Source of the DNA: a virus
IMG/VR virus record: IMGVR_UViG_3300030098_003696
Coordinates: 1-32,630 of that record
Reading direction: 5' to 3' (one strand)
DNA length: 32,630 nt
Under the pieces are notes generated by a model. That model did no database searches, had not been told where the DNA came from, and was given only the letters and a program-made list of their open reading frames with translations. Shown here piece after piece: positions 1 through 14,326 of the stretch. Within the stretch, counting starts at the first letter, position 1. Every line of letters starts with the position of its first letter. A program made the position numbers and the translations under genes.

Positions 1-1698
1 GTTTATAAGTTAGTATATGAAAAGAAGGTTTTACCAAGTATGCGTAGTTTACAGTTCGGTGGCAAACCGATTGAGATATCTCCTAACAGAGTATACAACT
101 GCGCTTATCTCCCTATTGACCATGTAGATTCATTTCATGAAGTAATGTTTTTACTTCTTGGAGGAACTGGAGTAGGGTATTCTGTTCAAAAACACCATGT
201 TAGTAAATTACCTCCTATAAATAAACCTTATGAAAAACGTAGGAGAAGATTTTTAATTGGTGATTCAATTGAAGGTTGGGCTGATGCAATTAAAGTATTA
301 ATGAAGTCTTATCTTAATGGTAAGAGTTCACGGATTGAATTTGATTACTCAGACATACGGCCTAAAGGAGCTCAACTGGTAACATCAGGTGGTAAAGCTC
401 CAGGTCCTCAACCTTTGAAAGAGTGTATTGTAAAGATCACAGGTTTACTTAGTGAGAAAGAAGATGGTGATCAGTTAACAACGTTGGAAGTACATGACAT
501 TGTTTGTCATATTGCTGATGCAGTGTTAGCTGGTGGTATACGTAGAGCAGCTTTAATAAGCTTGTTTTCCGCTGATGATCACGAAATGATTGCTTGCAAA
601 TCAGGTAATTGGTGGGAGACTAATCCGCAACGTGGTAGAGCTAATAACTCAGCATGTTTAATGAGGCATAAGATAACTAAAGAATTCTTTATGGACTTAT
701 GGAAACGTGTGGAGCTGTCAGGCGCAGGTGAACCAGGTATTTATTTAAACAATGATAAAGACTGGGGAACTAATCCATGTTGTGAGATTGCTTTACGTCC
801 ATACCAGTTTTGTAACCTATGTGAAGTTAATGCTTCAAATATAGAAAGTCAAGATGATTTCAATGCTAGGGTTAAAGCCGCTGCATTTATAGGGACGTTA
901 CAAGCTGGTTATACAGACTTCCATTATTTAAGGGAAGTATGGCAAGATACAACTGAGAAGGATGCGTTGATTGGAGTAAGTATGACAGGGATTGCTAGTG
1001 GTAGAGTATTAGGTTATGACATGACTGAAGCAGCTAATATTGTTAAAAAAGAAAACGCAAGGGTTGCAAGGAATATTGGGATTAAATCTGCAGCACGATG
1101 TACAACCGTGAAGCCTGCTGGGACAACATCTCTGGCATTAGGAACATCATCTGGTATACATGCATGGCATAACAAATATTATGTCCGTAGGATCAGGGTT
1201 GGGAAGAATGAATCTATATATAATTACTTAAATACTTATCATAGTAATTTAGTTGAAGATGATTATTTTCGACCACATGATACTGCTGTAATATCTATTC
1301 CACAGAAAGCTCCTGCTGGTTCTATACTTAGAACTGAATCTCCATTTGAACTATTAGAGAGAATAAAGAAAGTTGCTACAGAATGGGTTACACCTGGACA
1401 TCGTAAAGGTTCAAACACTCATAATGTATCAGCTACAGTTTCTCTTAAAGAAAACGAATGGGAGACTGCTGGAGAATGGATGTGGGATAATAGAGATCAT
1501 TATAATGGATTGTCTGTTTTACCTTACGATGGTGGTACATATGTACAAGCGCCATTTGAAGATATAAACGCAACCACTTATAATGAAATGTTAAAAGATC
1601 TTGAGTCAATAGATTTAACTCAGATAAAAGAAGTTGAAGACAATACAGATCTTTCAGGTGAATTAGCTTGTGCTGGTGGTGCTTGTGAAATTACTTAG
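1..1698 (+). CDS. nrdJ: Adenosylcobalamin-dependent (class II) ribonucleoside triphosphate reductase, 5' partial
   Basis: This enzyme reduces ribonucleotides to deoxyribonucleotides with a B12-derived radical, supplying precursors for phage DNA synthesis. The frame is open from base 1, so the ATG at 40 (VLPSMRSL) is internal and the true start lies outside the window. Numbering codons from base 1, all radical-chemistry residues are visible: C34 (NCAYL) and C271 as the buried redox pair, the NPCCE motif with N258, thiyl-radical C260 and E262, the phosphate-binding KPAGTTSL motif, and the C-terminal CAGGAC reducing pair (C557, C562) just before the stop. The 11-residue spacing C260-C271 and the C-x4-C tail match the monomeric Lactobacillus leichmannii type (about 739 residues). 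Here 565 codons are present, so at least about 85 N-terminal residues are missing. It ends in TAG and converges on the late operon. No intein or frameshift was seen. Confidence 0.96.
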   Translation, partial: VYKLVYEKKVLPSMRSLQFGGKPIEISPNRVYNCAYLPIDHVDSFHEVMFLLLGGTGVGYSVQKHHVSKLPPINKPYEKRRRRFLIGDSIEGWADAIKVLMKSYLNGKSSRIEFDYSDIRPKGAQLVTSGGKAPGPQPLKECIVKITGLLSEKEDGDQLTTLEVHDIVCHIADAVLAGGIRRAALISLFSADDHEMIACKSGNWWETNPQRGRANNSACLMRHKITKEFFMDLWKRVELSGAGEPGIYLNNDKDWGTNPCCEIALRPYQFCNLCEVNASNIESQDDFNARVKAAAFIGTLQAGYTDFHYLREVWQDTTEKDALIGVSMTGIASGRVLGYDMTEAANIVKKENARVARNIGIKSAARCTTVKPAGTTSLALGTSSGIHAWHNKYYVRRIRVGKNESIYNYLNTYHSNLVEDDYFRPHDTAVISIPQKAPAGSILRTESPFELLERIKKVATEWVTPGHRKGSNTHNVSATVSLKENEWETAGEWMWDNRDHYNGLSVLPYDGGTYVQAPFEDINATTYNEMLKDLESIDLTQIKEVEDNTDLSGELACAGGACEIT

Positions 1699-1803: not shown

Positions 1804-2076
1804 CTACCACTTAACTTTATCAGCCCAATAAGCAGCTGACATTTTACCTTTAGCTATATTTTTTCTATGTCTAGACTTAAAACTTTTCCTTTTCATTTTC
1901 ATTCTTTTAGATTCACCTGCCTTAGGTTTACCAGCTGTACTAGCTCCTTGTTCTCCGAATCTAATTATTTTTTCCTTACCACCTTCACAAGCTTTAACTA
2001 CATGAGATTTAGTTTTGTGCTTAGGAGTTTTCCTTGGTTTATTACAAGGTAAATCTTTTTTAATTAACCTACTCAT
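1804..2076 (-). CDS. Small basic protein of unknown function (90 aa), last gene of the late operon
   Basis: The protein is rich in Lys and Arg, especially between about residues 50 and 76, with two cysteines (C11 in DLPCN, C30 in KACEGG) and the segment IIRFGEQG. It ends in an aromatic tail, AAYWADKVKW. Charge and size suggest nucleic-acid binding or a small virion component, but no motif fixes a role. I recall similar small proteins with a RFG motif and a C-terminal Tyr-Trp tail in marine phage genomes, so it is probably conserved. Its ATG overlaps the stop of the preceding 78-aa gene in an ATGA, which implies translational coupling. It ends in TAG and faces the bidirectional terminator. Confidence 0.6.
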   Translation of the reverse strand: MSRLIKKDLPCNKPRKTPKHKTKSHVVKACEGGKEKIIRFGEQGASTAGKPKAGESKRMKMKRKSFKSRHRKNIAKGKMSAAYWADKVKW

Positions 2077-2309
2077 TTCTTTTTATTTTTTTCCATCCAT
2101 AAGCGTTGACCGGGTACATCTGTTTTATATCCTTTATACACAGTTCTTTTTCCGTTCCATACTTCAACAGCTCTATTTCTAAATGGCCCTTCTCTCCATG
2201 ATCTATCACCTAACTCGTCAGTCCATTTAGCCTTTTTAAATTCTCCTGTATATAATCCTGCAGATTCTTTATATTTACCTTCTTTTTTTAATTTTCGTTT
2301 CTTACTCAT
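2073..2309 (-). CDS. Small basic hypothetical protein (78 aa)
   Basis: Not recognised. The protein is highly charged, with Lys-rich ends (MSKKRKLKKEGK at the start, MEKNKKK at the end) around a Trp-rich centre (W29, W38, W51 and, near the end, W71). There is no signal peptide or membrane segment. The start overlaps the end of the T9SS-type gene by 8 bases and the stop overlaps the next ATG by 4 bases, so it is locked into a coupled late cluster. That tight packing is the main evidence that it is a real gene. A role as a small virion or nucleic-acid-associated protein is only a guess. Confidence 0.52.
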   Translation of the reverse strand: MSKKRKLKKEGKYKESAGLYTGEFKKAKWTDELGDRSWREGPFRNRAVEVWNGKRTVYKGYKTDVPGQRLWMEKNKKK

Positions 2310-3726
2310 AATATTTCTTTACATATGTACCATCTTGGTATATTTCTAATACCATACCTTTATAATACTGGTTTACTTCTTGCCCCATAAAGTTAACTAC
2401 TTTATCTATAATTCTTTCTGGTGAAACTATAATAACTGATATAGGATGAAATGACTCATATTGACCGTCATAATCTGTTTGTTTTAAACGATAATAAGAT
2501 AGTCCTTTTAAAGGTGAATCATCAACCGCGTTATATGACATCATTGTGTTAGTAGTACCTGCACCTTCTATAGTTTCAATTGTTTTCCATTGCTCTCCAT
2601 GTTCACTTCTTTGTATTTCAAAGTAATTATTATTTGTTTGTGAAGCTGTCACCCATTCAAGTAAAACAATAGGGTTAATATCTCCACCTAATACTTCACT
2701 GGTAAACGAAATAAGTTCTATAGGTAAAGCGTTACCACCTCCACCAAATCCAAACCTAGTATTGGGTCTTATAGAGTTTCTATATCCTATAGGTCCAGGG
2801 AAAACTCCATCATCGTAGTTATATACTACAGAGTTTGATTTAGTTGTATATTGAAACTCAGGATAACTTGAAGCCCATGATCCATGATTATTAACTACTT
2901 TAACTAGTAAGTTTCTAAACCCATCAAATTCATAAATTGTTTGCAAAGGTATTTCGTTCCAACCAGAAGCAAAATCTATTGACCCATCATAAACTTTTTT
3001 CCAAGTATCCCATGGTCCTACTCCAGGTTCAGGCATAGTAGCATCTGGAAACTCTTCTTCCAATGTCATTGCCATCCACACTTCTTGATTAGTCATTAGC
3101 ATATTTGCTCCATTAGTTACATTCCAACTTATTTTCTCTATGTCAAGTGGAGCATCACCTAATTCAGCAGCTGTATATATAGAAGCACTCCAGCTGTAAT
3201 CATAGTAACCATAACTAGGAACTCTACCATCATCTAATGCAGAGTTAGGATCACCAACCGTTACAGTATTAGGATCAACTATAACACCACCACCTCCAGA
3301 TGCGGGAGTTTTTTGTATCATTACTTCTGTCAATGTGGAATTTGAAGCACAATTATATTCATTTAAGTGTATATATAAAACACCTGTGTATCCAGCAGTA
3401 TATTTAACATATGAAGTAAAACCAGAGCATCCAGTAAAGTCATCATTAAAACCTAATAAATTACCCGCCGCATCTCTTAATGTTAATTGAGTGTCATATG
3501 AAGCTAACACACCACCAAACCCATCACACGTAGAAAATTGATACTCATCACCTGCAATTATATTAACTTGTATAACTTCACCTGCATAATTCCAAGCTGT
3601 AGCAGAACCCCAAACATTATCAGCGGGAGTATATACAGAACTTGGATAATAGTTAGTACCATTATCACACTGAGAATAAATAATTCCAGCAAGTAGTATT
3701 AATATAATTGTTACAAATCTTTTCAT
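2302..3726 (-). CDS. Secreted multi-domain protein with T9SS-cargo architecture (474 aa)
   Basis: Residues 1-19 form a Sec signal peptide ending IIYSQ, typical of flavobacterial exported proteins. Residues about 20-140 form a beta-rich domain with four cysteines (20, 67, 100, 126), similar to the PPC-like adhesion domains of Bacteroidetes surface proteins. A Gly linker (143-147) leads to a second beta domain (about 155-328) of a kind seen in Bacteroidetes secreted proteins, and a second Gly linker (327-331) follows. Residues 333-432 begin ALPIELISFTSEV and continue through NNYFEIQRS and LSYYRLKQTDYDG, the segment that commonly precedes type IX sorting tails. The last 38 residues (MGQEV, LEIYQDGTYVKKYYE) resemble the end of such a tail, but the usual PNP-containing first half is missing. 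The ATG overlaps the upstream TGA by 4 bases. It could be a host-surface modifier, an exclusion factor or a virion adhesin; which one is not decided by sequence. Confidence 0.85.
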   Translation of the reverse strand: MKRFVTIILILLAGIIYSQCDNGTNYYPSSVYTPADNVWGSATAWNYAGEVIQVNIIAGDEYQFSTCDGFGGVLASYDTQLTLRDAAGNLLGFNDDFTGCSGFTSYVKYTAGYTGVLYIHLNEYNCASNSTLTEVMIQKTPASGGGGVIVDPNTVTVGDPNSALDDGRVPSYGYYDYSWSASIYTAAELGDAPLDIEKISWNVTNGANMLMTNQEVWMAMTLEEEFPDATMPEPGVGPWDTWKKVYDGSIDFASGWNEIPLQTIYEFDGFRNLLVKVVNNHGSWASSYPEFQYTTKSNSVVYNYDDGVFPGPIGYRNSIRPNTRFGFGGGGNALPIELISFTSEVLGGDINPIVLLEWVTASQTNNNYFEIQRSEHGEQWKTIETIEGAGTTNTMMSYNAVDDSPLKGLSYYRLKQTDYDGQYESFHPISVIIVSPERIIDKVVNFMGQEVNQYYKGMVLEIYQDGTYVKKYYE

Positions 3727-4100
3727 CTTCTTTTCTTTTTCTTTGAGTTATTAGACATGATCTTACGTTCAACTTCTTTTATTTTTATTTCCATTTCATT
3801 GTCATAATCTTTATCTAACTTATGAAGCTCTTTGTCTAGTTCAACTCCTAGTTTAAACATTGTTTCCAATACTTCTTCTGCTTCATCTATCCTCTCATTA
3901 ATATCTAGTATCTCATCATTTATGGATTTATTCTTTAGATCATATTCAATCCTATTAATTTCACTAGGTGGAAGTTTCTTAGCTTCTTCAATGTCAGACT
4001 GTAAAGTAAAATACATCCCTACAAAAGATGCTGTAATTACAATAACAGCAATCACTGTTTTAAGGTCAAGTTTTAATTCAGTGTTTTCGTTTATTTTCAT
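3723..4100 (-). CDS. Small single-pass membrane protein with coiled coil (125 aa)
   Basis: A charged 14-residue N-terminus is followed by one strong membrane segment (about 15-33, VIAVIVITASFVGMYF). Then come PPSEI and a long, heptad-like, Glu/Lys-rich helix (about 45-118) and a very basic tail (KKKKRR). The layout fits a bitopic inner-membrane protein with a coiled coil on one side. Small proteins of this shape occur next to tail and ejection genes in marine phages. A holin or an inner-membrane spanin is possible, but there is no partner endolysin or outer-membrane spanin in the window. The start overlaps the giant gene's stop as TAATG, and the stop overlaps the next ATG as ATGA. Confidence 0.65.
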   Translation of the reverse strand: MKINENTELKLDLKTVIAVIVITASFVGMYFTLQSDIEEAKKLPPSEINRIEYDLKNKSINDEILDINERIDEAEEVLETMFKLGVELDKELHKLDKDYDNEMEIKIKEVERKIMSNNSKKKKRR

Positions 4101-7100
4101 TACTTATATTTTTTTCTAAGTTTAATAATGGCACGAATTCTTTTATCTTCATTGTTTAATCTACTAATCATTGAAGAACTTACTTTAAAGTCTTTTAACA
4201 TTTTGATTTGCTCATCTTTATTAGTCTTTGCTAATTCAGCATACTCTGGAGTTAACATAACAGCAGAAGGAGTATAAGTTTTATTAGTTTTATTTTTTAA
4301 TTTTTCAATTGCTTTAGCTCTTTTTTCTTTAGTATTAAGTTTCTTTATCATATTTTCAGAAACTTTATATTGTCTAAGAATATCTTTTTGTTCAGTTTCT
4401 GTCCATTTAGTTGGATCTTGTTTACCTTCAAATACTCTTCTTTCTATTTTCTCCTCTTGTTTTCTAGTCTCTCTATCTGCAGTGCTTTCCAACTCCCATT
4501 CAGCCCAACCAGATAACATAGCAACTCGTTTCCACCATTCTTGATCTGACTCCATTGCACCTCTTACATTATCCATTTTTTTAACTAACCTATCTAAAGG
4601 AATATTAGTTAAAGCAGAGATAACATATGCCCCTGATAACCAAGAGGGATCATCTAAACTCCAAGGATCTTTATCATGTTTCCAATTATTATACTCCCAA
4701 TTCTTAGCAGCTTGTCTTAACTTCCTAGCTTTAATAGATATTGGTGGAGAAAAATCTAATATATGCCAAGCTGATTCTGCATAGTCAGGTTGTTTGTCAT
4801 AATAAGAAGCATCGGGTGCAACTGATTTTTGATACTTATCATAAACATCCATTCCAATATTCTTAACAGTTAACACTGCTTGACCACCTACACCTATTCC
4901 ACGAAGCAAGTTATCTAACATGCTATTACCTATTTTATAATATTTTTCTTTCTTAGCTTCTTCCTCCTCATCATCTCCGAATCCCATAGCAAATATTGCT
5001 TGTTGTAGTGCGGTAAATAATAAATTTTGTACCATACCATAATAAACTATTTTAGATAAATTAGCTTTATAATCTCCTCTTCCGTTTATTAAATCTAATG
5101 TAGCTTTCTTTATTATTCTATTATACTGCATTGGAGTATTTGCGAATGCTAAAATAACTCTACCTAATCCACTTGCTTGTTGTTGTGATATTTTATCTGG
5201 ACGAGCAGACTGTTGAGATTCTTCAGCTGTTTCTCTAAAATCTTGGAATGCTTGAGCTTCAGCTTCTTCTTTACTCATTCCACCTTTCATTAAAGACTTA
5301 ATTCTATTCCTGTAAAAAGTAGCACCACCAGAAGCAATAGCAAAACTATCCATGATTTGTGTTACAGTAAAACCTTTTTTCAATAAGTAATTAACAACTG
5401 CTCTAGCTTTGTTCTTTTCATTTCTTGCTGCTTCAAAAATCTCAGATTCTGCTACGTTTATCTTTAAACCTTTTCTTCTATCTACTAGAAAATCAGAGTT
5501 CATTAATGTCATAAAGTCACTCCAATATTGTTTTTGATTAGCAAAAGCTCTACCTGCTCTTAATGGATTGTTATCTCCCCAATTTAAAAAGTTAATGGCA
5601 GATATAGTTTGAAGAACACCAGATCGCATGTTTAAGAACATTACAGTACCAACAGAGTTATTAATATAATCTAATAATCTATTTTCTAATCTATTCCCAG
5701 TGGAAGTTCTATTCTTACCACTCTTCATTCTACGTATACTATCTTCCAATGCTTCTCTATATCTAGTACCAAATAAAGCTTCAATTTTATTTAAGTTCTT
5801 TTCAGAAAATATAAGATCTACATTTTCTCTCCATTGTTCTAAATACTTATCTCTTTTATTTGTATTTAATCCTTCAACCAGATCAGTTGTTATACTACCA
5901 GCTAACCAATTCTTACCTGGATAAGCATAACCATCACCTTTGTTAATAGCAATTAATTGATCTACAAACACTTGTAATCCTGGATTATCTTCCATGAATT
6001 TTCTAAACTCTGCCATATCTCTTTTAGATAGATCAGCTACTTCTATTCCTTGCTGATCCCAAGCCATCACTCTTGCTACATCTTCATATGTAAAGTTGTC
6101 TATAGCTTTTTTCTTTAAGTTTTTAGGTATAGATCCAGATTTAATTAACTCTTTTTTCAAAGCGTTAAAGTCGTTCATCATTGTAACTCTATCAGTAGAT
6201 AAGTCATTCATACCTCTTGCGTATGGATTTAATAAATGCTCTTTAAACCAAGCCATCTGAGCATCCCCTACTTTTCCTTTACCTAAAAATCTATATAATA
6301 ACCCAGTGAAATCTTCTGCTGATGGCGGTATTAAGAATTTAAACTTACCTTTACCCGCACCCATTGTTTGTGCTCTAGCAGCTGAATATTCTTTATACCA
6401 ATCAACACCAGTTTTTTGTTCTATTATTTTGTTAAAATCTTTATCTACATTTTTACTAAATTTAACTTTAGCTTGCTGAACTTTAGATTTTACATCGATA
6501 ACATCTAATACTTTTTTAACTGCATTTACGTTTTTTATAGCATCATCTGCAAAATAAAAATCATTATATCCATCTGCAGCTTTATCTACAATCCAACCTG
6601 ATTTAGCTAATGGAGAACTATCTCCTAATCCAGTTATATTTTTTAATGGTATTTCTAATCCTATACTATCTAAAAATTCTTTAATTGCTGGTGCAGCTTC
6701 CATAGCTCTTGCCGTAAGAACAAATACATCTTCTGTACCTCTTGCATCTTGAATCTTTTTAGCCACTTCAAATAATGGACCTTTCTTACCTTCCATTACT
6801 TTGTTAAATTCAGAGAAATCAAACTCAGCTCCTTGCTCTAACATTTCCGTACCACGTTTAGCAAATTCTTCTGCTGTTAATTTTCCTTTTTTACCATCCG
6901 GCATTGTATATAATACATTACTTTTAGTCTGAGCTAATGTATCATCAAAATCAAATACCCTAATCTTTTTAACTGGAGCATTAGGATCACGAGCTATATT
7001 TAAAGCTTTATCCATTATCCCTGCTTCTCTAAGTATTTCAGAGTTAGGTAATGACTTAGACATTTTCACTACACCGCTACCATCTAATGATTTTATATTA

Positions 7101-10100
7101 GATCTACTTGCTTTGTATTTTAATTTTGCTAAAGGAAGTTGTCTTGTAAATTCTTTAGTTGCTTCTTTTTTAGTTATATTTTCTTTTATCTGAGCTATAA
7201 TTAAGGAATTTTGCAATTCAATAATCTCCGGAGTAATTTTTGTTCCTTTAGGAGGTTTTACTCCATAGTAATCAGTCAGAATTATCTTGTTACCATTTTC
7301 ATCTAGTATTTCAATAGTGTTTAAATCAATACCAGCTTTAGCATATCTAATCCATCCACTTTCTACACCCATTAATACATTATAAAGATCTTCTTTTTGA
7401 GGACCTTCTTTCATGCCAAGTTCTTTAATATTTACTTTGTCATCATTAATTTCTGATAAAGGACCTTGAAAATAATTTAATTGTATACCTGTAAAATTAT
7501 CATCAACAACTTTTTCATAAGCCAAAAACAACCCTTGTTTAGCAGTTAAACTAGCTCCTAATGCGTGTTCTTCTGTTATTTGTCCTGAAGTTAATGATTG
7601 CATTCCTAATTCTCTAAAAGTTATAGGAGCAATTTTTCTCATAAAATGAGCTTGTTCAGCAGCTGTTGTTCTTAACATACCAACTGCGGCTGGAATTATA
7701 TTACCATCTGCATTTTGAATTCTTAAAAATATTTCTTTTAATACTCTGTCTTTTATATTATTATTTTCAATATTTTCTTTACTACCAAAATAAGCATTAA
7801 ACTTATCTGATAATCCTAATTTTCCTTTTGTACCATGTTTTTTTAGAGCTATAGGTAAAGGATCAAACTTAACTTTTTTACCATTTACTTCTTTTTCAAA
7901 TTCAAAAGGAGGACCATAGTCAGAATCTTCAAATTTTTCATTTAAATAATCTATAAAAGCTTGCTTATGATTAGCTTGTAATTTTCCTTGTTTATTTTTT
8001 TTAGGATTTGTGTCTTTAAAAGGAAAACCTCTATATCCATAAAATGCTCCAGAATTTATTAAAAAATCTTTTGGAAATATCTTTACAAGTTTAGGAAATT
8101 CTTTTTCTTTCCATTCTTCTAATTGTTTAGGGTCATTAAAATCATAATTTTTACCACCCATTTCTCTAGAAAACTTACTCCAAAATCTTTGATCGCTAAT
8201 ATAATTTTCATATACCCTTTGTTCTATAGCATTATCTAATATACCTTGCTCAATTTTATTATTAAATCTAATTGTCTTGGATTTTTGTCTAGTAAATTTA
8301 GTACGGGGATCTACTTGTAATTTTTTACTTATTTGAGGAAGTTTTTCTTTAACTCCTTTTCTTTTAACTTTTTCAATTGCAGTAGGAGAAACTTGTCTAC
8401 CAAATAAATCAACTAAACCTTCTGCAAGACCAGTTTTTCTAGTACCTCTTGTTCCACTTTTTTTACCTGTAGTAGGATTAACTAATGGAGCTAAAATAAA
8501 ATCTGCTAGTTCTTTAGCTGTAAAATCTTTAAATTCATAAATATTAACTCCTTGTGAAGTTACTTCTACGTATACTTTATCATCTAACATAGCTTTATCT
8601 ATATCAGTTTGCTTTGTTAATCTTTTTGGTGGAGATGTAAATTTCTTTTCATTCACTGGAGTTGATCCTTCCATCCTTACAAACCACTGTATAGGTAGAT
8701 TTTCTTTTAGTTTTGCTGCTAATTTTTTAACATTAAATTCATACGTTTTACCTGCACCTAATTTTTTCTTTACTTTAGCAGTTGTTTTACCTCTAAACGC
8801 TTCAGTTACAAATCTTTTAAATTCCTTACCTTCTACTTCTGGTGTTGGACTTTCAAATATTTCTAATCCAGCAGTTTCAAAATCTTCTTTTAATTCTTGA
8901 TCAAATATCTCTGGAAAATCTCTAATAAGTTTAGCTCTTGGAGTCACCCTATCTTTTTTATCTTGAGATTCTTTAGATATTAATCTTTCTTCAGGAGTAG
9001 GATCTGTTGAAGCTATATCAAACTCCCTTTGTCCTTCACCAACAACTTCTCCTATTCGCTGTTCTTTGCCTTCAAATTTACCACGTTTAGCTTGTTGAAG
9101 TATTTGATTATACCTTCTTTTTAAATTCCTTTGCATGTAAGCACCAAAAGGTATACGTTTACCATCTACCACTGGTCTATACGTATCTATTAGTCTACCT
9201 AATTGCTCATCATAACCTGATTTAAATTCTGCTTCAGATACTCTTTTACTAGGATCTAATGCCATAGCCCCAGCACTTTTTGCAGCTCTACCTGCTAAAA
9301 CTTCAGCTGCTTTTTTATTATTTTCATAAAGCTCATCTTTTATCTGCTGTTGTAAATCTGCATCTTTTATATCTCTTACTCTAACATCTCCAGCTTCAAT
9401 TATTTTTTCTTCAATACTAGTATTACGATCTGCAATTGCTTTATTAGATTCTGATACTTTTTTTGAATACTCTTCTTTTTCTACTACTAAGTCTTTATCA
9501 AAAGCTTCAGTAATAGCTTGCTTTGTCTTTTTACCTAATTCACCTCTTTTATATTGTGCACCGTAATCTTTAGCAAAATTATAAACTTGTCTACCACTCT
9601 TAAAATTAAGATTGTTGTAGCCAAAAGGTTTAAACAATACCTCTCTTATCCAATCACCTACACTAACCCAAAAACCTTCATTACTAGCATCTAGTTCTCC
9701 ACTTGCAACCAGATCAAAAAACGCTGTTGCCCATTCATCTGAATATTCAGCTTGTTCTTCAGTAAGTATTCCAGCATCTACATATTCAGTTTTAATTCTT
9801 TTTTTTATTGTATCAAAAGCCTGTTTTTGTCTTTTTTCTAATATTTGTTTAAATTGACGTATTGCTTTTTTCTCTTGTTTTTCAAGATTGTTTCTTTCTT
9901 TTTGAAATTCTTTTAAAGATTTTTTTCTGTTTTCTTTTTTATTTTTCCAAGTATCAAATTTTTCAATTTTCCACTTAGCAGCAAGTAATCTATGAAACAC
10001 TTCATGTCCCACTGCACTAACATCATTAACTTCACGTGCTCTTTGTTTATCAATTATAATATCTCCTTCTGGTGTTATTACGGCAGTAGGTGCAGTTCCT

Positions 10101-13100
10101 TCTTCAATATCTTTTTGAGATAATTTAATACCTTCTTTTTCTGCTGTCTCATAAAAATCTGTTGAAGTATCAGTTGATTGTATTTTACCAGTTGGAGTTA
10201 TTTCTTCCATCATCTCAATTCTTTCTTCAGTTACTTTGTCTGGAGAAAGTAATTCAGACTCTTGTATTTTATTTTTAATATTTTGTGAAGCTCCTAATAC
10301 AGTATATGATGCTTCACCTTTACTAACAGCTTCTATAAATTCTTTATCTTCAAGTAATTTTTCAAACTCTCTTTGTGAAACTAATTTATTATTTACAATA
10401 AAATAAGATTGATCACTTACGTTTTGGTTTTTTACACCTTTTAATCGAGATTCATTAGCAGCTTGCTTTTGAGATTGAATTTCTACTAATGTTTTAAGAG
10501 CCATATCTTGATTCATAAAGATATCAGCACCTGTAGCAACGTTATTAACAGCATTATTTAATTGTGCTATTTCTCTTGCTGCAGCAGTATTATTTTCTTT
10601 AATTAATTGTTCTTCTATTTTACTTAATTCAGTGGAAAATCTCACCACATCTTGAGTGTCCATCTTTCTATCTAACATGCTTCTTCCTTCTAATATCTCC
10701 TTGATAGTTTCAATTTGCTTATTAGATAGATTAGATTGAACCCTACCTGTTAATAATTTAGAAATACTACGTAAAGTACCTATATCAGTAGAATTTTCTT
10801 TTGCATATATAGATATTTCTGATAACTCCGCTTCAATTTCTTTAACTCTTTGAACTTCCCAAGCAGCGTTATCTTTACCTTTTTGCTCTATTGTATTTTT
10901 TAAATCTTGTTTTTCTAATATTAAATCATAAGCTATTTTTTGATCAACTCCATCTAGTCCAGCTTCCATTTGTTTAAATACTCCACCAGCAATAGCTAAT
11001 GCTCTTTTATTTTCTTCTAATTCTTTAGGTGTAAGTTTTCCATTTGCTGCTTGTGCTTCTAACATTTCTTCTAAAGACTTCAAACTATTCTTATTCCTAA
11101 TCATAGCTTTAGCATATTCAAATGCTAATAAATCTGTATCTTTACCAAAGGAATATGTTTGATTTCCATTTGCTACATGTCCAATTATAGAATAACCACC
11201 TCCACCAATTGCTCCAGCTCTCATAGCTGTTAGAATATCTATTACAACTTCTTGTGCTCCTTGGTCCATGGCTGTGCTCCATATATTAGGTTCTTGATAT
11301 CCCACAACTTTACCATCTTCATCAAAAATAGGTTTACTTTTCATACCTATTTCTTCTAAAGCCTCAAACATTTCTTTAAAGCTTACCTCTACTAATTGCT
11401 GTGTTCCTTCTGTAACACCTTCTACTAGCGCTCCATCAACAACTCTTACAACTCCTCTTGCTATCCAATTATCTAATTCTTCGGCAACTAAACCAGGTAA
11501 AATTGCTTTACTTGCAAATTTACCTTGATTTTTTTTAAGAACTTTCATCATTAAAGAGTTGACTATCCAACCTTTTCCAGGAGTAATTCTATCTACACCA
11601 AACTTTTCTAATGCAGAAACTGTAGCTACTGTAGGTAATATAACAGACCACTTTTTCCACTCAGGCATATTAGCTAAATAGTGATTTCCATCTTGATCAA
11701 CAGCATTATCTATCTCCTCCATCATATGAGCCGTGTGGTACAAAGCAAAAGGAGTGGATGATAATAAAAAACCACCACCTAATCCACCTGTAGCTATAGA
11801 TGCTAACATAGCTGGGGCATTTTCTACTAAACTTAATAAATCCCCATATAACCAATCATCCATTAACGCTCTTCCATATTCAGTATCAGAAGCACCAGTT
11901 CCTATTACTCTTGAAAAAGGTGAGCGCATATTTTTATTGTAAACTTCTCGCATGAATTTTATTTTTTCATCTGTAGAAGTTCCTGGCATAAAAGCATCTA
12001 ATGCACCACCATAATTACCCACATAACCAGAGAGTGCTATCCCATATTCAAAGGCTCCATCAACCATTTTATCTACACCAGATACAAACTTATCAACAAC
12101 AATAGATTCCCATGTACCATAATTAGATAACATGTCATTTACACCCTCAATTACTTTTATAGAGTTGGAATTTATAAGTAATTCATTTGCGGCTTTAAGA
12201 TTAGACATGTCAGCTTGTGTACTATACCAATCACTAAATTGTTTATATTCTTGCTGTATTTGTTGATTAAAGTTATTAACCTCTTGTTCATATTGTTTAG
12301 AAGTCCAACCTTCTACAATAGCTGTATTTTTAACTTCTTCACTAAACGTGTTGATTTTTTTAGTAAGTTCATTTTCAAAGTTTTGTCTAATTTTTGTAAA
12401 CTCTTTTTCTTTGTTATTTATTTCTTCTAAAGCTAGTTGACTTTGCTTAATTTGTTCTCGTTGCCAATCTGTATTAATTAAGTTTTTTGTAAATGGACTT
12501 AAGTTGCTATTAAGTAGTTCATCTGGTGTCATAGGTGGAACAAAAGAACCATAATCTTTCACATAATTAAAAAGCTTATCCATTGTAGTCCTAGCAAATT
12601 CATCAGCAAACTTACCAGTATGATTAGTGTATAATACTAAATCTGGACCATTTTTAGAACTAATAGTTACAGCATTGCTTAATCTAGCCATGTTGTCTCT
12701 ACGTTCATCATAAAACCAATTATAATCAGCAGATTCTCCAGCGGTTGCATATATATTTATTCCCCATGCATTTAAAAACCCTTCCCAATCTTCTGCAAAC
12801 TTTTCTTCTGTCTGTCCTTTAGCATGTGTTGTTTTAAAAATTGCATTCTTTACATCTTCATCAAAAAACTTTTCTCTCCATTCAGGATCATTCATGTTTA
12901 AGTTACGTAACTTATTAACATAAATTTGTTTTTGATCTTGATATTGAGTACCTAAATCAAACATAGCGGACTCTGGAGTAGTAAAAGTTAATCTATCTAA
13001 CTCTTTAAGATGATGATTTACATATTTTTCTTTTTGTCTTGCTTTTTCTTTCCCTATTTGTATAGCTGTATATGTCTTTTGAAAATCGTTTAATTCTTCT

Positions 13101-14326
13101 AAAGTAAATCCAGTTTCTTCCATTACCTCTAAAGCTCCTTCGGGTGTTTGAGCTTTTACTAAAATTGAATTTAACGGATTATCTGTATTCTCTCTGTTTA
13201 CTAAATTATTAAATACTTGGTCAATCTGTTCCTCTCTATCAACGCCTTCTTCAGGTTCTACATATATTTCAATAAGCTTTTTAGCGGTTGGTTCAAAGTT
13301 ATCTATATCAGCTTTTTGTTTTTCTAATAAATCAACTTGTATGTCTGCTCTTTTTGCAAGAGACATATCCATACCTTCTCTTTCTTCTATTAAAAACTCT
13401 GCCACACCACTTACTATATTACTTAAAAAACCATCTGCTTCATCATAATCTTTTGCTAAATTAGTTAAATAATCTACAATAGGTGTTTCTTCTAATTCTA
13501 CATCTTCTGTTACGGTTACTGGTGTAGTTGGATCAAATTTCTTAGCTTCTTCTAAAAGTTTTTTCTTATCTTTTAAGTCCTGGTCATGGAATTTGTCTTG
13601 AAAAAATATAATTTCTTTTCTTACACGGTGAACATCTTCCATAGTAGTATTTTCTCCAAAAATATCTTTAAATTCTTGTGTTGGTTGAATTCGATAACCT
13701 CCTGGAATTGTAGAAGATCGATAAACCTCAGTCATCCAAGTGCTTCCATCTTCCACCTTACGACCGGATTTGTTTTCTGGTACATATGACATAAATACTT
13801 CAAGTAATTTGTCATCTGTTAAATTTGGGTAATATACTTTATTTACACCTTTTATTACATCTACAAATTCCTCAAGTACCTCTATTTTATTATTATAAGG
13901 TTTATTTTCAGCTTGATATACGGGATCATAAATACTAACTAACCCCATGTCTTGAGTTACAACTTTATCTTTAGGTCTATCATAAAAATTAGAGTCTATT
14001 CTTGCTTGTTCAATAGTTTTAGTTTGATCAGGTATAATTGTAGTTATTCTATCTATTGTCTCTGTAGCTATTTCGTCAGGAGTTTTTAATTTTATAGACT
14101 TAAATCCGCCTCCTGTACTTGTAACACCTCCTCTAATTCCTGTATCAAAGTTAATATCTACTTTAAATGTTTCAAAATCTGGAAGTTCAAAATATTCAGA
14201 CATGTCATCTCTAAATCCTCTAAGACGGTCCTCGTCTTGCATGTCCACTTTAAACGTTTCAAAATCTGGTAACTCGAAATATTCATTACCATCTTCCCAT
14301 AACCCTAATAGAAGTTCTTCGTTCAT
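4100..14326 (-). CDS. Giant polyvalent virion protein with metallopeptidase and HAD-phosphatase domains (3408 aa)
   Basis: This is by far the largest gene, lying after the tail and internal-protein genes, where short-tailed phages encode ejected internal proteins. In order: an N-terminal 14-residue peptide duplicated at 15-28 and 44-57; long charged helical stretches; Gly-rich hydrophobic segments near 828-870 and 1026-1050; a zinc-peptidase motif HEVFH at 1441-1445 with a candidate third ligand E1531; a sigma-region-2-like stretch near 1700-1787; a HAD phosphatase domain (DFDDT 2459-2463, LTAR 2537-2540, FADD 2592-2595); a C-terminal region near 2890-3120 that I recall as shared by giant proteins of marine phages, with a hydrophobic stretch before an acidic GDDEEEE; and a helical module repeated at 3312-3346 and 3372-3406. 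This layout fits the large polyvalent protein class, probably packaged and injected to protect or reprogram the incoming genome. The T7 counterpart gp16 is only about 1300 residues. The start is 10 bases after the previous gene. Confidence 0.82.
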   Translation of the reverse strand: MNEELLLGLWEDGNEYFELPDFETFKVDMQDEDRLRGFRDDMSEYFELPDFETFKVDINFDTGIRGGVTSTGGGFKSIKLKTPDEIATETIDRITTIIPDQTKTIEQARIDSNFYDRPKDKVVTQDMGLVSIYDPVYQAENKPYNNKIEVLEEFVDVIKGVNKVYYPNLTDDKLLEVFMSYVPENKSGRKVEDGSTWMTEVYRSSTIPGGYRIQPTQEFKDIFGENTTMEDVHRVRKEIIFFQDKFHDQDLKDKKKLLEEAKKFDPTTPVTVTEDVELEETPIVDYLTNLAKDYDEADGFLSNIVSGVAEFLIEEREGMDMSLAKRADIQVDLLEKQKADIDNFEPTAKKLIEIYVEPEEGVDREEQIDQVFNNLVNRENTDNPLNSILVKAQTPEGALEVMEETGFTLEELNDFQKTYTAIQIGKEKARQKEKYVNHHLKELDRLTFTTPESAMFDLGTQYQDQKQIYVNKLRNLNMNDPEWREKFFDEDVKNAIFKTTHAKGQTEEKFAEDWEGFLNAWGINIYATAGESADYNWFYDERRDNMARLSNAVTISSKNGPDLVLYTNHTGKFADEFARTTMDKLFNYVKDYGSFVPPMTPDELLNSNLSPFTKNLINTDWQREQIKQSQLALEEINNKEKEFTKIRQNFENELTKKINTFSEEVKNTAIVEGWTSKQYEQEVNNFNQQIQQEYKQFSDWYSTQADMSNLKAANELLINSNSIKVIEGVNDMLSNYGTWESIVVDKFVSGVDKMVDGAFEYGIALSGYVGNYGGALDAFMPGTSTDEKIKFMREVYNKNMRSPFSRVIGTGASDTEYGRALMDDWLYGDLLSLVENAPAMLASIATGGLGGGFLLSSTPFALYHTAHMMEEIDNAVDQDGNHYLANMPEWKKWSVILPTVATVSALEKFGVDRITPGKGWIVNSLMMKVLKKNQGKFASKAILPGLVAEELDNWIARGVVRVVDGALVEGVTEGTQQLVEVSFKEMFEALEEIGMKSKPIFDEDGKVVGYQEPNIWSTAMDQGAQEVVIDILTAMRAGAIGGGGYSIIGHVANGNQTYSFGKDTDLLAFEYAKAMIRNKNSLKSLEEMLEAQAANGKLTPKELEENKRALAIAGGVFKQMEAGLDGVDQKIAYDLILEKQDLKNTIEQKGKDNAAWEVQRVKEIEAELSEISIYAKENSTDIGTLRSISKLLTGRVQSNLSNKQIETIKEILEGRSMLDRKMDTQDVVRFSTELSKIEEQLIKENNTAAAREIAQLNNAVNNVATGADIFMNQDMALKTLVEIQSQKQAANESRLKGVKNQNVSDQSYFIVNNKLVSQREFEKLLEDKEFIEAVSKGEASYTVLGASQNIKNKIQESELLSPDKVTEERIEMMEEITPTGKIQSTDTSTDFYETAEKEGIKLSQKDIEEGTAPTAVITPEGDIIIDKQRAREVNDVSAVGHEVFHRLLAAKWKIEKFDTWKNKKENRKKSLKEFQKERNNLEKQEKKAIRQFKQILEKRQKQAFDTIKKRIKTEYVDAGILTEEQAEYSDEWATAFFDLVASGELDASNEGFWVSVGDWIREVLFKPFGYNNLNFKSGRQVYNFAKDYGAQYKRGELGKKTKQAITEAFDKDLVVEKEEYSKKVSESNKAIADRNTSIEEKIIEAGDVRVRDIKDADLQQQIKDELYENNKKAAEVLAGRAAKSAGAMALDPSKRVSEAEFKSGYDEQLGRLIDTYRPVVDGKRIPFGAYMQRNLKRRYNQILQQAKRGKFEGKEQRIGEVVGEGQREFDIASTDPTPEERLISKESQDKKDRVTPRAKLIRDFPEIFDQELKEDFETAGLEIFESPTPEVEGKEFKRFVTEAFRGKTTAKVKKKLGAGKTYEFNVKKLAAKLKENLPIQWFVRMEGSTPVNEKKFTSPPKRLTKQTDIDKAMLDDKVYVEVTSQGVNIYEFKDFTAKELADFILAPLVNPTTGKKSGTRGTRKTGLAEGLVDLFGRQVSPTAIEKVKRKGVKEKLPQISKKLQVDPRTKFTRQKSKTIRFNNKIEQGILDNAIEQRVYENYISDQRFWSKFSREMGGKNYDFNDPKQLEEWKEKEFPKLVKIFPKDFLINSGAFYGYRGFPFKDTNPKKNKQGKLQANHKQAFIDYLNEKFEDSDYGPPFEFEKEVNGKKVKFDPLPIALKKHGTKGKLGLSDKFNAYFGSKENIENNNIKDRVLKEIFLRIQNADGNIIPAAVGMLRTTAAEQAHFMRKIAPITFRELGMQSLTSGQITEEHALGASLTAKQGLFLAYEKVVDDNFTGIQLNYFQGPLSEINDDKVNIKELGMKEGPQKEDLYNVLMGVESGWIRYAKAGIDLNTIEILDENGNKIILTDYYGVKPPKGTKITPEIIELQNSLIIAQIKENITKKEATKEFTRQLPLAKLKYKASRSNIKSLDGSGVVKMSKSLPNSEILREAGIMDKALNIARDPNAPVKKIRVFDFDDTLAQTKSNVLYTMPDGKKGKLTAEEFAKRGTEMLEQGAEFDFSEFNKVMEGKKGPLFEVAKKIQDARGTEDVFVLTARAMEAAPAIKEFLDSIGLEIPLKNITGLGDSSPLAKSGWIVDKAADGYNDFYFADDAIKNVNAVKKVLDVIDVKSKVQQAKVKFSKNVDKDFNKIIEQKTGVDWYKEYSAARAQTMGAGKGKFKFLIPPSAEDFTGLLYRFLGKGKVGDAQMAWFKEHLLNPYARGMNDLSTDRVTMMNDFNALKKELIKSGSIPKNLKKKAIDNFTYEDVARVMAWDQQGIEVADLSKRDMAEFRKFMEDNPGLQVFVDQLIAINKGDGYAYPGKNWLAGSITTDLVEGLNTNKRDKYLEQWRENVDLIFSEKNLNKIEALFGTRYREALEDSIRRMKSGKNRTSTGNRLENRLLDYINNSVGTVMFLNMRSGVLQTISAINFLNWGDNNPLRAGRAFANQKQYWSDFMTLMNSDFLVDRRKGLKINVAESEIFEAARNEKNKARAVVNYLLKKGFTVTQIMDSFAIASGGATFYRNRIKSLMKGGMSKEEAEAQAFQDFRETAEESQQSARPDKISQQQASGLGRVILAFANTPMQYNRIIKKATLDLINGRGDYKANLSKIVYYGMVQNLLFTALQQAIFAMGFGDDEEEEAKKEKYYKIGNSMLDNLLRGIGVGGQAVLTVKNIGMDVYDKYQKSVAPDASYYDKQPDYAESAWHILDFSPPISIKARKLRQAAKNWEYNNWKHDKDPWSLDDPSWLSGAYVISALTNIPLDRLVKKMDNVRGAMESDQEWWKRVAMLSGWAEWELESTADRETRKQEEKIERRVFEGKQDPTKWTETEQKDILRQYKVSENMIKKLNTKEKRAKAIEKLKNKTNKTYTPSAVMLTPEYAELAKTNKDEQIKMLKDFKVSSSMISRLNNEDKRIRAIIKLRKKYK
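4109..4393 (-). repeat. Duplicated C-terminal helical module in the giant protein
   Basis: Residues 3312-3346 (4289-4393) and 3372-3406 (4109-4213) align without gaps. Both begin EQ, share the [RK]-x-[YF]-K-V-S core, then LN-x-[ED/KE]-KR and a KL-x-K ending. The two copies are separated by 25 residues containing LTPEYAEL. The second copy runs almost to the stop codon. This is an internal protein duplication, probably of a small helical protein- or nucleic-acid-binding unit. Confidence 0.8.
14156..14284 (-). repeat. Duplicated 14-residue N-terminal peptide of the giant protein
   Basis: The peptide EYFELPDFETFKVD occurs at residues 15-28 (14243-14284) and again at 44-57 (14156-14197), identical in all 14 positions. 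At the DNA level the two copies differ at 7 of 42 bases and every difference is synonymous. The peptide is therefore under selection and is not a recent copying accident. A short docking motif for another virion protein is the likeliest role. Confidence 0.93.

Follow-up and report, generated by a model that had tools for sequence, protein, structure and literature searches.

The stretch of DNA analysed here, called the window hereafter (32,630 nucleotides, IMG/VR virus record IMGVR_UViG_3300030098_003696), belongs to a phage that is related to elemoviruses and carries in its late operon a gene (the target) whose product is, with high probability, a phage-encoded cargo of the host type IX secretion system (T9SS), fitted with a short C-terminal domain (CTD) and displayed or released late in infection. 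The predicted protein brings together a signal peptide, beta domains and a C-terminal tail that is common to host exported proteins, and its gene combines a late-operon position with signs of purifying selection. That the T9SS would recognise the tail is suggested by relatives in which a canonical sorting domain takes its place at this locus.

The identity of the phage is firm, as PHROG searches matched the terminase with 512 bits, the portal with 472 bits and a structural/capsid protein with 290 bits. Among named phages, the relatives of the portal and terminase were Flavobacterium elemoviruses and phages of Cellulophaga, Tenacibaculum and Maribacter, which makes it almost certain that the host belongs to the Flavobacteriia. 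An earlier note on this DNA had placed an open reading frame at 2302-3726; the ORF is real and its coordinates are correct, but the coding strand is the minus strand, the plus strand being full of stops across this interval. The genes at and around the target are the following:

1..1698, plus strand: ribonucleotide reductase (RNR), convergent, phrog_367 with 429 bits; the other border of the accessory slot
2073..2309, minus strand: small basic ORF downstream of the target, 78 aa, with a homologue in contig L008
2302..3726, minus strand: target ORF, complete, 474 aa, phage-encoded candidate T9SS cargo, aligned with 13 viral homologues
3723..4100, minus strand: upstream gene, 125 aa, with one transmembrane segment and a coiled coil
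4100..14326, minus strand: gene of a giant 3408-aa protein, which closes the virion-type part of the late operon ahead of the accessory slot

The start of the target overlaps the stop of the upstream gene by 4 nt (ATGA, 3723-3726) and its end is overlapped by the small basic ORF by 8 nt, so that the target is built into the late transcription unit, which begins at the terminase (32.6 kb) and ends near 1.8 kb. The giant gene takes the position of the last late gene in an elemovirus, and its product, for which no Pfam match was found, is 28-58% conserved, mainly in the C-terminal third. For the upstream gene, the PHROG search gave no more than weak similarity to families that are unknown or Rz-like; its product is kept beside the slot in many phages, and a lysis or envelope role is possible.

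All the elements quoted in the earlier note were present in the target, namely the signal peptide (MKRFVTIILILLAGIIYS, followed by QCDNG), the Gly linkers, ALPIELISFTSEV, YYRLKQTDYDG and the end ...LEIYQDGTYVKKYYE. The protein can be divided as follows:

3673..3726, minus strand: predicted Sec/SPI signal peptide (residues 1-18), then the invariant Gln19 (Bacteroidetes Q-rule)
3301..3672, minus strand: N-terminal beta domain (residues 19-142) with four invariant cysteines
2731..3264, minus strand: middle beta domain (residues 155-332), which L011-L013 and L328 do not have
2443..2730, minus strand: C-module (residues 333-428), ALPIELISF...YYRLKQTDYDG, a beta sandwich that precedes the sorting domain in cellular relatives
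2305..2442, minus strand: short C-terminal tail (residues 429-474), with predicted strands at 440-445, 457-463 and 468-473

By a hydrophobicity heuristic, the target has the strongest N-terminal hydrophobic stretch of all ORFs in the window (KD 3.5) and this, together with the invariant Gln at the predicted cleavage point, points to the N-terminal Sec signal peptide expected of T9SS cargo. Gln after signal peptide cleavage is the Q-rule of the Bacteroidetes (PMC5837995, PMC10653852), and Q-rule signal peptides are known in P. gingivalis phages (PMC10367356). A lipoprotein reading was considered and rejected, because Gln19 precedes Cys20 and there is no lipobox. In the alignment of 14 sequences, which includes homologues from 13 IMG/VR contigs at 51-75% identity, Q19 as well as C20, C67, C100 and C126 were invariant. 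The N-terminal domain is separated by a Gly-rich linker from the middle beta domain, which three of the aligned phages lack entirely. Codon comparison of six pairs gave pN/pS values of 0.14-0.29 for the whole gene and 0.06-0.26 for the N-domain, with relaxed selection confined to the signal peptide; the tail (0.09-0.24) was among the most constrained parts of the protein. A PDB sequence search with the target and Foldseek searches with the full-length model (pLDDT 65) and the model of C-module plus tail (pLDDT 82) returned nothing or generic beta-sandwich matches, and no catalytic domain was recognised either with sorting-domain and family models or in the PDB sequence search.

Against TIGR04183, TIGR04131 and PF18962 the window protein gave no score, and the description of its tail in the earlier note, as compact and devoid of the usual PNP half, was borne out. 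The tail is 36-46 aa long and comprises segments resembling motif B (NFMGQEV), motif D (KGMVLEIY) and motif E (GTYVKKYYE). The structure prediction that had been called for produced a three-stranded tail sheet: in the model of C-module plus tail, AlphaFold2 placed exactly three strands within 36 aa (residues 107-112, 124-130 and 135-140 of that model), with a block pLDDT of about 78-89, and the full-length model agrees. The tail thus has three strands and not the seven-stranded sandwich of about 70-100 aa that defines type A domains. In our tail profile (A4) positions G9, G18 and K31 were invariant, motif D read GMV, GIV or GLV instead of GxY (or GxN), and no PT/GI cleavage consensus preceded the tail. 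Alignment of the short tail with 72 long CTDs by hhalign was weak (probability 2-30%), and homology to the long sorting domain is for this reason left unclaimed.

Comparison with known systems is instructive in both directions. Like the target, type A cargo (TIGR04183/PF18962) has a Sec signal peptide, a beta-sandwich body and an LPI...YYRLKQ module before the terminal domain, and this domain shares with the target tail two Gly and a basic residue at the motif B, D and E positions. In contrast, the type A domain measures about 70-100 aa with seven strands, whereas the target tail, with 36-46 aa and three strands, lacks the PNP half and stays below detection by either model. The short CTDs of Prevotella intermedia have 43-55 aa and a predicted three-stranded sheet equivalent to strands 3, 6 and 7 of the long CTDs; motifs B and D each keep a conserved Gly and motif E a basic residue, and these CTDs support cleavage and glycosylation like the long ones, some of the cleavage having been determined experimentally; P. 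intermedia was called the only species reported with both CTD classes (PMC11969387). The target tail falls in the same length class (40-55 aa), is modelled as a single three-stranded sheet, keeps the invariant motif B and D Gly and the motif E basic residue, and has a motif B-D spacing of 4 residues, within the published P. intermedia range of 1-6. Unlike these CTDs, however, it occurs in Flavobacteriales and phages and has neither the GxY of motif D nor the PT/GI consensus. We infer from the published description that the tail works like a short CTD but, because those two features are missing, we do not file it as a member of the short-CTD class or of TIGR04183.

Tails of this kind proved to be frequent in cellular proteins. 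The A4 profile matched 96 of 299 Flavobacteriales genomes, with up to 9 copies per genome, and across 395 genomes of the phylum it found strong matches in only one. In all the 34 ORFs examined the tail lay 0-6 residues from the stop, and most of the apparently complete ones had a signal-peptide-like start, often with Gln next. The tail therefore behaves as an extreme C-terminal signal common to different bodies, an esterase and a P-domain protein among these 34 ORFs included, as is expected of T9SS cargo. It occurred without a preceding C-module in 2 of 21 bodies, one of which was a PHB-depolymerase-type esterase. The C-module is common in exported proteins of Bacteroidota, where it is usually followed by the long type A domain, and some Flavobacteriales chromosomal proteins end instead in the short tail of the target. 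With regard to the C-terminal 140 residues, for which a match to T9SS cargo had been anticipated, the window protein falls outside the T9SS families, but its module and tail recur in cellular exported proteins.

The other domains are shared as well. In the cellular proteins L122, L127 and L132 the phage middle domain (26-29% identity, E 1.6e-9 to 1.7e-14) is joined to C-module and tail, and the cellular Flavobacteriales exported protein L119 combines the phage N-domain (34% identity, E 2.5e-10) with the tail, so that the phage protein looks like a shuffle of parts of host surface proteins. In G101, G166, G197, G176 and about 90 other Flavobacteriales genomes, exported proteins carry a tail of the form x-N-[LM]-[LM]-G-Q-E-V-[DN]...[YN]-G-[IL]-V-[IL]...Y-x-D-G-T..K. 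On sequence grounds, tails of this type apparently make up an undescribed class of T9SS signals that is missed by TIGR04183 and PF18962. PorU was present in 60 of 60 tail-positive and in 48 of 50 tail-negative Flavobacteriales genomes and, the base rate being the same, its co-occurrence was dropped as support for the tail.

The viral relatives were scored at the curated cut-offs of 23 bits for TIGR04183, 27 for PF18962 and 35 for TIGR04131. Contig G698, whose TerL, portal and capsid protein are 84, 67 and 74% identical to those of the window, carries in the slot between the giant gene and RNR (the small gene included) an orthologue of 1042 aa that shares the N-domain at 54% and the C-module and whose C-terminus is a canonical type A domain (TIGR04183, 36.9 bits; PF18962, 40.8 bits). 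In L007 and L010, which represent another phage type, the first 430 residues are kept at 54-70% identity and the ends are type A domains scoring 26.6 and 26.8 bits with TIGR04183; this model recognised L007, L010, L234, L235 and L319. A third possibility is found in L294 (1722-2165), of the window lineage, where a 148-aa protein beside RNR scores 57.8 bits with TIGR04131. This protein consists of little beyond a signal peptide and a type B domain. PorV is needed for type A CTDs, and PorP/SprF-like shuttles serve the type B ones (PMC12618676, PMC11205867). That three kinds of T9SS signal are used repeatedly would be difficult to account for if the host T9SS did not handle these proteins. With same-locus orthologues carrying TIGR04183/PF18962 domains, there is good support for the original identification of a T9SS-type exported protein encoded among the late genes of a phage.

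The target family is accessory within the lineage. Among 14 RNR-anchored loci of the window lineage that also hold the giant gene, the slot survey found an intact family member in four, a broken fragment in one and none in nine. The fragment (L236:6423-6824) lies upstream of RNR, on the side opposite to the usual slot, a position that suggests gain and loss of the family. Other occupants of the slot included L139, which has a signal peptide, the lipoprotein-like L140 and the type B protein of L294, and in the elemovirus examined no such gene was annotated up to the last late (giant) gene. The family extends to the 112-kb contig L009 and to L007 and L010, two contigs of another phage group that have neighbours in common with L009. 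Moreover, a second phage family (L322:3032-4105, L329:1175-2287 and L330:3017-4093), from phages unrelated to the window phage, has a different body (starting YDYMETW...) arranged as signal peptide, C-module and short tail. The huge phages LR745206.1, LR756500.1, LR756502.1 and LR756504.1 (L316-L319, 462-642 kb) carry the LPI...YYRL module with short or type A tails, LR745206 joining the C-module to a short tail and LR756500 to a type A domain; in two of the four, several places were similar to the type B protein. A tblastn search with the L007 CTD among named phages gave nothing and, consequently, isolates with such cargo were not found; beyond the IMG/VR homologues, the target protein itself matched only four records, all of metagenomic huge phages.

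Phage export of T9SS cargo, which the earlier note had considered unusual, is indeed so but not without precedent (PMC7468147, PMC6949934). Cryophage T9SS cargo has been reported together with the hypothesis that host secretion is hijacked; as in our case, these are phage-encoded proteins with T9SS sorting domains that vary between variants (PMC7468147). Cryophage cargo, from a cryoconite phage, consists of enzymes (glycoside hydrolases) or PA14 proteins with type A domains (PMC7468147), whereas the target has non-enzymatic beta domains, belongs to a family with short tails and occupies a late-operon slot of marine elemovirus-like phages. The BACON cluster 2 proteins of crAss-like phages are likewise phage gene products with T9SS domains, encoded near the head module, but they differ from the target in their BACON repeats, gut phages and canonical domain (PMC6949934). 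Within the searchable literature, the short CTDs of Flavobacteriales, those of phages with their repeated use in several lineages, and the swapping between short, type A and type B signals at a single phage locus seem to be new.

On these grounds we propose that the target would be made late in infection and exported by Sec, and that Q-rule cleavage would leave an N-terminal (pyro)glutamine. The protein would then fold as disulfide-bonded beta domains, and recognition of the three-stranded short C-terminal signal would take it through the T9SS translocon across the outer membrane, where it may be handed over to PorV and attached to the cell surface or released. Once bound to the surface, it would change the contacts that infected cells and debris make with other phages or surfaces. 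A late exported protein of this kind, in which no catalytic domain was recognised, most plausibly alters the surface of the infected cell and its debris, so that late in infection the host is probably redecorated by the virus; attachment to particles is possible, as are effects on competitors. As to purpose, if export is granted, the likeliest candidate is a masking of receptors that would spare progeny from being wasted on dying cells, to which we would give somewhat less than even chances.

Three other explanations were weighed. According to the first, the protein is T9SS cargo but serves attachment to particles or polysaccharides (aggregation, nutrient binding) and not receptor masking or superinfection exclusion. 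The homology of its middle and N-terminal domains to host surface-protein domains and the glycoside hydrolases among Cryophage cargo (PMC7468147) agree with this, but no catalytic domain was recognised in the target and, with the gene in the late operon, hardly any time would remain to feed the host, so we regard it as rather unlikely. According to the second, the product is exported by Sec and acts in the periplasm or in lysis, its tail being the relic of a sorting signal that no longer functions, close to the decoy or partly functional tail that the earlier note had envisaged. A short tail unmatched by T9SS models would fit, as would the neighbouring transmembrane/coiled-coil gene with its weak Rz-like match; against it, the tail is among the most constrained parts of the protein (pN/pS 0.09-0.24), many host exported proteins finish in this same kind of tail, and the relatives swap it for complete T9SS domains and do not lose it. 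The tail appears instead as a complete, conserved cellular C-terminal module that fits the published short-CTD architecture (PMC11969387), and a decoy is improbable. Finally, a virion adhesin or fibre, in which domains borrowed from a host surface protein would serve as structural decoration with an incidental signal peptide, would suit the place of the gene directly behind the virion genes and the resemblance of its beta domains to binding domains, but with an invariant Q-rule signal peptide and cysteines that indicate export, absence of the family from 9 of 14 sampled slots and from the annotation of the elemovirus examined, C-terminal signals swapping among short, type A and type B, and family members in unrelated phages, it is very improbable and, given these export features and the dispensability of the protein within the lineage, the least likely of the roles previously suggested (anti-superinfection coat, debris capture, virion adhesin).

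Recognition of T9SS cargo is taken to require a domain with seven strands and about 100 aa and, to our knowledge, short T9SS signals have been reported from one oral species only. The 36-46 aa tail is a natural signal candidate in about a third of the sampled Flavobacteriales genomes and, being invisible to TIGR04183 and PF18962, it implies that the cargo repertoires of marine flavobacteria are probably under-counted. Taking cellular and viral data together, we favour, with moderate confidence, the view that the Flavobacteriales hold widespread, undescribed, minimal three-stranded T9SS signals and that several unrelated phage lineages (among them lytic marine podophages, large myophage-like contigs and 600-kb phages) use a late or accessory cargo slot to exchange short, type A or type B-tagged cargo by which the infected host would be given a different surface. 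As lytic phages draw on T9SS signals repeatedly, it becomes testable whether they redecorate the flavobacterial surface late in infection and whether progeny are thereby protected or rivals excluded.

In more distant phages (L142:4754-6674, L144:6291-7712 and L235:5109-6800) the homologue of the upstream transmembrane/coiled-coil gene was flanked by a thioredoxin-like ORF with a signal peptide and, at the same loci, by a second signal-peptide ORF resembling an outer-membrane beta-barrel, which looks like another set of exported genes near this homologue.
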